From positions 930,001 through 994,000 of the forward strand of contig NZ_CP045455.1 in assembly GCF_030060925.1 (NCBI RefSeq): a DNA stretch of 64,000 nt, in the 5' to 3' direction. Shown piece by piece: positions 34,405-45,052 of the stretch. The translations under genes were made by a program, and so were the position numbers. How positions within the stretch are numbered: position 1 is the first letter of the stretch; the number at the start of each line of letters is the position of its first letter. The DNA comes from Spiroplasma sp. SV19 (GTDB lineage: Bacteria > Bacillota_I > Bacilli_A > Mycoplasmatales > Mycoplasmataceae). The notes beneath the pieces were generated by a model. The model saw only the letters and a list, made by a program, of their open reading frames with translations, was not told the origin of the DNA and did no database searches.

Positions 34405-34426
34405 AAACTCACCCTTATCATAAAAA

Positions 34427-34508
34427 ATGTCATTACACATAGTCCTTAGTCTTATGGCTGCTACCTTCCGGTCCTGACCAGTTTCAAATGTAACTATTGT
34501 AATGACAT
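34427..34508 (-). ncRNA. ffs: Signal recognition particle 4.5S-type RNA
   Basis: 82-nt small SRP RNA on the minus strand. The 11-bp closing stem is ATGTCATTACA / TGTAATGACAT. The apical domain has the Ffh-binding core GGTCAGGACCGGAAGGTAGC, with the GGAA tetraloop and asymmetric AGCAGCC/CAGG loop. T-rich sequence (TTTTTT) follows the 3' stem and probably ends transcription. Confidence 0.95.
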
Positions 34509-34513
34509 AAATA

Positions 34514-34522: not shown

Positions 34523-34563
34523 TATATTTTTTACTTAACTATGTTTTTATTAAAATAGTCAAA

Positions 34564-34579
34564 TGTTTCACGTGAAACA
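34564..34579. other. parS-type centromere site 1
   Basis: Perfect 16-bp palindrome TGTTTCACGTGAAACA, identical to the conserved bacterial parS (ParB/Spo0J) sequence; the symmetry extends to AAATGTTTCACGTGAAACATTT. It lies in the gap between serS and the SRP RNA, about 8.6 kb from oriC. Confidence 0.88.
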
Positions 34580-34611
34580 TTTATATAGTTGGAAGTGTTA
34601 CCACCTTAAAA

Positions 34612-34627
34612 TGTTTCACGTGAAACA
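34612..34627. other. parS-type centromere site 2
   Basis: A second exact TGTTTCACGTGAAACA, 48 bp from the first, embedded in a 30-bp perfect palindrome (34605-34634) that overlaps the serS stop codon. As RNA it could also form a hairpin ending the serS transcript, but there is no clear T-run. Confidence 0.88.
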
Positions 34628-34629
34628 TT

Positions 34630-35901
<1,272 letters not shown>

Positions 35902-35914
35902 TTTTGGGTTCTCC

Positions 35915-40381
<4,467 letters not shown>

Positions 40382-41823: not shown

Positions 41824-43176
41824 TTATTTTCCTTCAATTTTTTTACGAATTGTATTTACTAAATGCTTAAATTCTTTATTTGTTGTAATTTGTGATTCAA
41901 CTTTTTTAACGCTATTCATTACTGTTGTATGGTCTTTTCCCCCAAATTCAGTACCAATTCTTGTAAAAGGGTCGTCTAATAATGTTCGACAAAAATACAT
42001 TGCTAATTGACGAGCTTGCATTACATTACTGACTCGTGATTTGCTCATCATTGCTTTCACAGTAATATTATAGTTATCAGCAACAATTTGCTTAATTTTT
42101 TTAGGGGTAATCTTCTCATTATTTTGTAAAGGAGTATTTTTAAAGGCTTTTTCAACATCAGCTAATGTAATAATTTCATCTGGTTTTTTATTCATAACTG
42201 CTAAAAATAATAGTCGCTTAACTGCTCCTTCTAATTTTCGAACATCACTATTAAAATTTAGGGCAATAAACTCTAATGATTCTTCAGAAAATAATGCTAA
42301 ATTATTTTGATATTTTAATTTTTGTTCTAATATTTTAAGTGCGGTTTCAAAATCGGGTGAATCTAAACCAATACTTAAACCATATGAAAATCGCGAAATA
42401 ATTCTAGCTTCAAAACCACCAAGATCATCAGGATATTTATCTGAAGTAATAACAATTTGTTTGTTTTTTTCAATATATGAGTTAAAAATATGGAAAAATA
42501 ATTCATTAGTTTTATTTCGTTTTGCTAATAACTGAATATCATCAATTAACAAGCAGTCATAAATATCATATGATGTTTTAAAAGCCTCAATAATTTCATG
42601 GCCTTGATTTAAGATATCCATTGCAATTTTTCCAAATTCATCAGCTTTTAGATATTTAACACGGGTATTTGTTTTATAAATTTCAGTAACTTTATTTTCA
42701 ATGGCATGCAATAAATGGGTTTTTCCTAATCCAGAGTCTCCATAAATAAACAACGGATTTCATTTTTTTCCCAAATCTAAAGCCACAGCCAAAGCTGCCT
42801 GCATTGCTTCACGGTTAGAATCCCCACGAACAAAGTTTTCAAAAGTATAATTCTCATAATAACTATTATTATTGTTTTCTTTTAAAGTATCAATATTGTT
42901 AATGACAGATGCTTGTTTATTAATATTTTTTTCTAATTCAAAAGAAATGTTATATTCAATTCCAGTTAATTTCTTTAAAATGTTTTTAATTTTATCATTT
43001 AATCCTGCTTCAAAAACCCCAATGGCAATTTCTGATTTTGTTGTAATTAAACAATTATTATCAGACACGGTATATAAGTTAGTATCACTAATGTAATAAT
43101 TGTAAATTTCAGGCGAAACTGATTCATCACGGGATAGAATTTCTTTAACCTCACTTCATAATTCTTTTGTGTTCAT
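41824..43176 (-). CDS. dnaA: Chromosomal replication initiator DnaA
   Basis: Opens oriC and loads the helicase. 450 residues. N-terminal domain I, then an Asn-rich linker (about 88-103). The AAA+ core has Walker A IYGDSGLGKTHLL, Walker B DCLLIDDIQLL and sensor IISRFSYGL. The C-terminal DNA-binding helix-turn-helix carries the signature FGGKDHTTVMNSV. GGAGATGAAATA precedes ATG. The gene points away from oriC. Confidence 0.98.
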
Positions 43177-43425
43177 TATTTCATCTCCATTAGTTTTTAT
43201 CTTATTAATTATAAATAAAAGATGTGGAAAAGTACCAAAAAATAATTTAATTTCAAGAATACTAATGGTTTTCCACATATAATATTTTTCTATTTTTTCA
43301 TAAAAGTCTTATTTTTAAAGGATAGTTTTATCTTTTTCCACAATATTAACATTTTTTATGATTTAAAATTTTTCTTTGTGGAAAACAAGTTAAATTCAAA
43401 TTTTACTGCCGCTTTTTTTATTTTT
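43177..43425. other. oriC: Chromosomal replication origin oriC
   Basis: Gap between divergent dnaA and guaB with four exact DnaA boxes of the type TGTGGAAAA: 43223-43231 (+), 43269-43277 (-), 43334-43342 (-), 43377-43385 (+). They are arranged in two inward/outward pairs about 46-65 bases apart. The DNA between them is extremely AT-rich (stretches of T and A at 43283-43330) and may be the unwinding element. Gene order and strand switch support the origin. Confidence 0.88.
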
Positions 43426-43444: not shown

Positions 43445-43465
43445 TTAATACTACAATAATATATT

Positions 43466-43532
43466 TTCCTATATATGCTAGAAATATGGTCTGGTGTCTC
43501 TACAGTTAACCTTAAATTAATTACTATAGGTC
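43466..43532 (+). promoter_or_regulatory. Guanine-type purine riboswitch aptamer
   Basis: Three-way junction: P1 CCTATA / TATAGG; P2 GCTAGA / TCTGGT with loop AATATGG; J2/3 GTCTCTAC; P3 AGTTAA / TTAATT with loop CCTTAAA; J3/1 ACT. Loop residues for the L2-L3 kissing contact (GG with CC) are kept. The discriminator position is C, so guanine (not adenine) is expected. J2/3 has C where the family mostly has U48, a flipped-out base. Confidence 0.85.
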
Positions 43533-43575
43533 TTAATTTGTTTTTAATTTATTAAGACCATGTTTCTTTTATTCA
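43529..43575 (+). terminator. Riboswitch expression platform / attenuator
   Basis: GGTCTTAAT (43529-43537) pairs with ATTAAGACC (43551-43559). Its 5' arm overlaps the 3' strand of aptamer P1. The T-tail is moderate (ATGTTTCTTTTATT). Ligand-dependent attenuation of guaB is the expected output. Confidence 0.7.
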
Positions 43576-43606: not shown

Positions 43607-45052
43607 ATGCAAATTAAAAAATCCTATACCTTTGATGATTTATTATTAGTTCCACAAAAATCTGATATTTTACCTTATCAGATTGATTTAAGAACTAAAA
43701 TAACAAAAAATATTGAATTAAATATTCCTTTTTTATCTTCAGCAATGGATACTGTTACTGAATCAAAATTAGCTATTGCAATTGCTCGTGAAGGTGGAAT
43801 TGGAATTATTCATAAAAATTTATCAATTACTGAACAAGCAGCAGAAGTTGAAAAGGTAAAACGAAATGAATCAGGTTTTATTATTAATCCAATAACTTTG
43901 AAACCAACAATGACTGTGCAAGATGCTGAAGACATTATGGCACAATATCGTATTTCAGGGTTACCGGTTGTTGACGAAGAAAATAAATTACTAGGAATTA
44001 TTACAAATCGTGACATTCGTGCTTGTCATGATTTATCAGCGCCAGTTGCTGACTTTATGACAGTAAAAAATTTAATTACAACGCATGAAAAAATTAATTT
44101 AGAGCAGGTAAAAGCAATTCTATTAAGTAATCGAATTGAAAAATTGCCGATTGTTAACGCGAAAAATATTTTAAAAGGATTAATTACAATTAAAGATATT
44201 AATAATCGTGATGAATATCCTAATGCTTGTAAAGATGATCAAGGACGGTTACGTGTCGGTGCTGCCGTTGGAATTGATGAAAGTACTTTGCCACGAGTTG
44301 AAAAGCTTGTTGCTGCCGGTGTTGATGTAATTGTTGTTGATTCTGCTCATGGTCATAGCCAAGGGATTATTGCTATGGTTAGTAAAATTAAAAAGAGTTT
44401 TCCAACATTGGAACTTATTGCTGGAAATGTTGTGACAGCCCAGGGAGCATTAGATTTAATAACTGCTGGTGCTAATGCGATTAAAGTAGGAGTAGGCCCA
44501 GGGAGCATCTGTACCACTAGAATTGTGGCTGGGGTGGGCGTGCCCCAAATTACTGCTATTAATGATGTTTATGAAGTATGTGCCCCAAAAGGAATACCGG
44601 TTATTGCTGATGGTGGCATTAAATATTCTGGTGATGTTGTTAAAGCTTTAGCAGCAGGTGGAGCTGCGGTCATGATGGGATCAGTTTTTGCGGCAACTCT
44701 TGAAGCACCAGGAGAAGAAATGATTGTTGAAGGTAAAAAATATAAAACATATATGGGAATGGGTTCATTAGCAGCAATGAAAAAGGGCAGTGCTGATCGT
44801 TATTTCCAAGATAAAAACCGTAAATTAGTACCTGAAGGGGTTGAAGGACGCGTTTTATTAAAAGGAAAACTAAGTGATATTCTTTTCCAATTTATTGGTG
44901 GATTACGAAGTGGTCTTGGTTATTGTGGTGCGAAAAATATTGCAACTTTACAAAAAACAGCGCAATTTGTGGAAATTTCAAATAATGGTTTAAAAGAATC
45001 ACATCCACATGATATTGCAATTACAAAAGAACCACCAAATTATACAAAATAG
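43607..45052 (+). CDS. guaB: Inosine-5'-monophosphate dehydrogenase
   Basis: Converts IMP to XMP, the committed step to GMP. 481 residues. TIM barrel with [17 protein letters not shown] at the start, two CBS domains (about 93-200), NAD/IMP loop DSAHGHSQG, active-site cysteine in [17 protein letters not shown], the [17 protein letters not shown] phosphate site and flap [19 protein letters not shown] precedes ATG. A guanine riboswitch in the leader links expression to purine supply. Confidence 0.98.

Follow-up and report, generated by a model that had tools for sequence, protein, structure and literature searches.

Two exact copies of the 16-mer TGTTTCACGTGAAACA in Spiroplasma sp. SV19 almost certainly form the parS cluster, or chromosomal centromere, of a ParABS system of the Soj/Spo0J type. 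They lie in the window, by which we mean the whole 64-kb stretch of DNA analysed. The assignment follows from the combination of exact, unique and paired sites, a matching ParB, and the co-occurrence of ParB with the 16-mer. Spiroplasma sp. SV19 very probably segregates its chromosome with standard bacterial machinery that was lost in smaller mycoplasma relatives. The initial annotation had predicted ParB-based segregation, which is supported at the sequence level by intact parA and parB genes, parS-type residues in ParB, and the association between the 16-mer and ParB. The wall-less helical cell named in that prediction follows from the genus Spiroplasma, and the description of the subject as little studied is fair for parS. 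In the literature that could be searched, we found no paper characterising a Spiroplasma parS, and among those papers the element is apparently uncharacterised at the DNA level. The predicted centromere would be complete and very small (two sites in 64 bp, none elsewhere), in a wall-less bacterium from the order of the minimal-cell lineage.

The parS pair and the probable replication origin

Both sites are located in one intergenic region, between serS (serine–tRNA ligase, 34630–35922, minus strand; TIGR00414, 554 bits) upstream and ffs (bacterial small SRP RNA, 34421–34511, minus strand; Rfam RF00169, 63.4 bits) downstream. In the direction of transcription serS precedes the SRP RNA gene, and we therefore refer to the serS-proximal copy at 34612–34627 as site 1 and to the SRP-RNA-proximal copy at 34564–34579 as site 2. 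The 16-mers are exact at both positions, so the perfect pair reported between these genes is confirmed, with starts 48 bp apart and 32 bp between the sites. A perfect 30-bp palindrome, CTTAAAATGTTTCACGTGAAACATTTTAAG (34605–34634), is centred on site 1; it spans the serS stop codon (34630–34632), as the initial annotation had noted, and is a possible serS terminator hairpin. Site 2 is centred in a perfect palindrome of 22 bp (34561–34582).

The probable oriC is the region upstream of dnaA (41824–43278, minus strand), at 43180–43420. It contains four DnaA-box-like TTTTCCACA motifs, at 43223, 43269, 43334 and 43377 (span 43223–43385), and the GC-skew minimum was found at 43740. Both the motifs and the skew minimum agree with the previously given distance of about 8.6 kb between the parS pair and oriC. 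The window thus holds two exact copies of an origin-proximal, TGTTNCACGTGAAACA-type parS 8.6 kb from oriC. A purine riboswitch aptamer (43449–43546, plus strand) directly upstream of guaB (IMP dehydrogenase, 43607–45052) adjoins the probable origin.

A search of the complete 1,456,516-bp genome (a single contig) returned only the two exact copies of TGTTTCACGTGAAACA near oriC, against approximately 0.0004 copies expected from base composition, and we rejected a chance match. Exact copies are confined to the origin, not spread at random far from it. No further site with one mismatch was detected elsewhere in the genome. The next-best match was a single site with two mismatches, and matches with three mismatches were scattered; in all, 16 genomic sites lay within three mismatches of the 16-mer, compared with 8 for the reversed-pattern control.

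ParB, its partners and their distribution in the order

The genome has a single ParB_N match, at ~726.6 kb (113.6 bits), within an intact 296-aa ORF. This ORF overlaps a 259-aa ParA ORF with the Walker motif KGGVGKTT, which places parAB at about 726–728 kb, and the chromosome therefore encodes an intact ParB-family protein with a ParA partner. A methyltransferase-like ORF precedes parA-parB; we take it to be rsmG, the usual neighbour of parAB, which would make this an rsmG-parA-parB cluster. The closest solved relative of ParB was B. subtilis Spo0J (6sdk, E 1.8e-60), followed by Noc (E 1e-48), and ParA was of the ParA/Soj type, with the ParA-family protein 8ray ranked first and the segregation protein 1wcv next. 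ParB carries a helix-turn-helix (HTH) as well as the motifs GERRSRA (GERRxRA, CTP-binding) and ENIQR (ENxQR). SMC N- and C-terminal segments were found at 616.8–619.7 kb, and ScpB is encoded at 453.7 kb. In S. eriocheiris, ParB has been detected by proteomics (PMC5988712).

We also surveyed 198 genomes of the order, 64 with ParB and 134 without. The exact 16-mer occurred in 52 of the 64 ParB-containing genomes and in 0 of the 134 others (Fisher p 1.6e-36, a value that overstates independence because the counted species are related). Its reversed-pattern control gave no match in any of the 198. The other 12 ParB-containing genomes carry versions of the 16-mer with one or two mismatches; in finished genomes, several of these lie around coordinate 9 kb. 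One of the 12 (G052) has the variant pair CGTTTCACGTGAAACA and GGTTTCACGTGAAACA in the serS-ffs gap, with a spacing of 63 bp. Matches with one or two mismatches in family members lacking ParB were scattered and look like chance occurrences. Four sister-genus genomes (G109, G153, G126 and G079) encode, beside the chromosomal ParB, an additional short ParB_N protein, in open frames 135–140 aa long.

SMC and ScpB were retained in all six ParB-lacking family genomes tested. The relatives that we infer, from family, genome size and genetic code, to be of the Mesoplasma/Mycoplasma type have lost ParB and parS together and kept SMC. The reported absence of the ParABS system from Mycoplasmataceae (PMC4368675) agrees with this joint loss. 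By its serS protein, which shares 93% identity with the Spiroplasma poulsonii sequence and 83% with the one from S. phoeniceum, the host itself belongs to the citri/poulsonii group of Spiroplasma.

The parAB genes are not beside oriC: in SV19 they lie 238 kb from parS. Among relatives this distance varies between about 10 and 568 kb, with 67–568 kb in the other members of the same genus measured and ~40 kb in the sister genus. Unlike parAB, the parS pair keeps its place between serS and ffs across the Spiroplasma-type genera. The remote position of parAB is unusual, yet compatible with a chromosomal ParABS system and not disqualifying.

Alternative readings and the palindromic arms

We considered whether the sites might bind a nucleoid occlusion protein of the Noc type rather than a ParB of the Spo0J type, because the top NCBIfam model for ParB was nucleoid_noc, although its 236.6 bits fell below the cut-off of 315. 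As reported by Jalal et al. (PMC7383237), the residues at positions 173, 179, 184 and 201 of Caulobacter ParB set the choice between parS and NBS, with R173 and G201 conserved among ParB proteins and Q-K-K-R present in Noc. The equivalent residues in the Spiroplasma protein are R-T-T-G, and all 27 ParB proteins compared (that of Spiroplasma and 26 from the order) retain the specificity R and G. We rejected the Noc reading on these residues. The closer match to Spo0J, the pairing of parB with parA, and the site sequence, which is that of parS, argue in the same direction and leave it very unlikely. That the palindromes are terminator hairpins only, with a coincidental resemblance to parS, would account for their location at the end of a gene and for the good RNA fold of the region (z −6.55, 101 nt). 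However, the central 16-mer shows little or no variation between genera and the arms are variable, the exact 16-mer is confined to genomes with ParB, and only ~0.0004 exact copies would be expected. A coincidental match is already contradicted by the association with ParB, and we regard this explanation as extremely improbable.

It is a different matter whether the parS sites, being a centromere, also form the apex of intrinsic serS terminator hairpins, so that in Spiroplasma one element would serve as both. We hold this reading tentatively, with the balance somewhat against it. A perfect extra arm of at least 6 bp flanked the core at 29 of 68 sites in Spiroplasma-type genomes, compared with 3.7% for mispaired flanks, in which left and right flanks from different genomes were combined. 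When right flanks were permuted within the genus, the observed value gave p 0.0002 in the host's own genus, and 0 of 5000 permutations reached it in the larger sister genus. The arms vary between species and yet stay complementary, as in CTGCAA...TTGCAG (G115) and CCGCAA...TTGCGG (G082). The same holds for three close sister-genus species, where the arms differ (TATAAAT...ATTTATA, TATCAAAT...ATTTGATA and TATGAAAA...TTTTCATA) and all are complementary. In 29 of 34 genomes, site 1 is located 3–11 bp past the serS stop, and the filter used picked up no separate terminator in any of them. In the remaining five it is 19–31 bp from the stop, and a hairpin with a T-run lies in between in G138 and G052 (and, by eye, in G026). 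Ordinary hairpins are present directly at the end of serS in some of the relatives that lack ParB (e.g. L215, L216, L219 and L221). In SV19, the hairpin at the serS stop was calculated at −14.5 kcal/mol with its flanks and is followed by UUUU; its sister-genus orthologues have a strong T-tract, with site 1 typically followed by 7 T in 8.

Against the dual role, the T-run after the core in SV19 is only TTTT, and a consensus terminator scan of the window flagged neither site. Site 2 lacks a following T-run in many genomes, and matching arms could also arise via templated correction of quasi-palindromes. Nevertheless, with arms that remain complementary across species and site 1 sitting where the serS terminator would be in those 29 of 34 genomes, parS may also act as a terminator hairpin. 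On the simplest reading, the serS terminator of most Spiroplasma would have parS at its tip. We found no relevant literature on parS inside terminators. If the dual role is real, a single element would place ParB/SMC and end serS transcription, and RNA polymerase would be prevented from transcribing across the ParB loading site; the covarying arms make this sharing of one DNA element by centromere and terminator a testable possibility.

Long complementary arms around parS were also observed in L186 and L190, from another family of the order, and in L195, from another family of the class, where the arm holds a T-run and is terminator-like; these cases suggest that the merger of centromere and terminator may be recurrent. 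In three sister-genus genomes (L027, L033 and L179), perfect arms of 18–20 bp surround one of the two parS sites with no T-run after them, and such lengths exceed what a terminator needs.

Some genomes have a single parS. In G094 (L016), the left flank matches that of site 1 in its relative G082 and the right flank that of site 2, and the intervening 56-bp repeat unit is missing. G195 (L192) and G153 (L191; compared with G109) show a similar pattern, and the single-parS genomes look like deletions between two direct parS repeats. Their arms have lost complementarity (on average 4.2 of 10 positions pair, with 4.6 expected). The start-to-start distance of the pair ranged from 25 to 74 bp among the Spiroplasma-type genera, with no 10.5-bp rhythm obvious by eye.

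Comparison with known segregation systems

By analogy with the protein family, each parS would be a nucleation point for ParB (Spo0J), which would form a closed, CTP-dependent clamp there and spread by sliding along adjacent DNA. The role of ParA (Soj) would be to separate ParB-DNA complexes after origin replication, and an origin loaded with ParB would be expected to recruit SMC-ScpAB as well. ParB binding, CTP switching, segregation and SMC loading are all attributed to the Spiroplasma system from what is known of the family.

The SV19 system resembles Soj-Spo0J-parS of B. subtilis in the consensus of the parS 16-mer, the origin-proximal sites, the parA-parB pair and SMC-ScpB, and in a ParB orthologue with the GERRxRA and ENxQR motifs and the R..G specificity residues. 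It differs in having only two sites, 32 bp apart in a single intergenic region, in the position of parAB 238 kb from the origin, and in the wall-less cell that it would serve. The Noc/NBS system shares with it a ParB-fold paralogue family; the Spiroplasma DNA sites, however, are parS and not NBS, and the protein has R-T-T-G in place of Q-K-K-R.

In Mycoplasma mycoides and JCVI-syn3A, SMC is retained, as in the ParB-lacking genomes of the family tested. Syn3A is without ParB and parS (PMC8339304), in agreement with the joint loss described above, whereas the Spiroplasma genome keeps both. Since ParB and parS have gone jointly whereas SMC and ScpB were kept, the two kinds of genome provide a natural setting for comparing SMC function in the presence and in the absence of loading by ParB.
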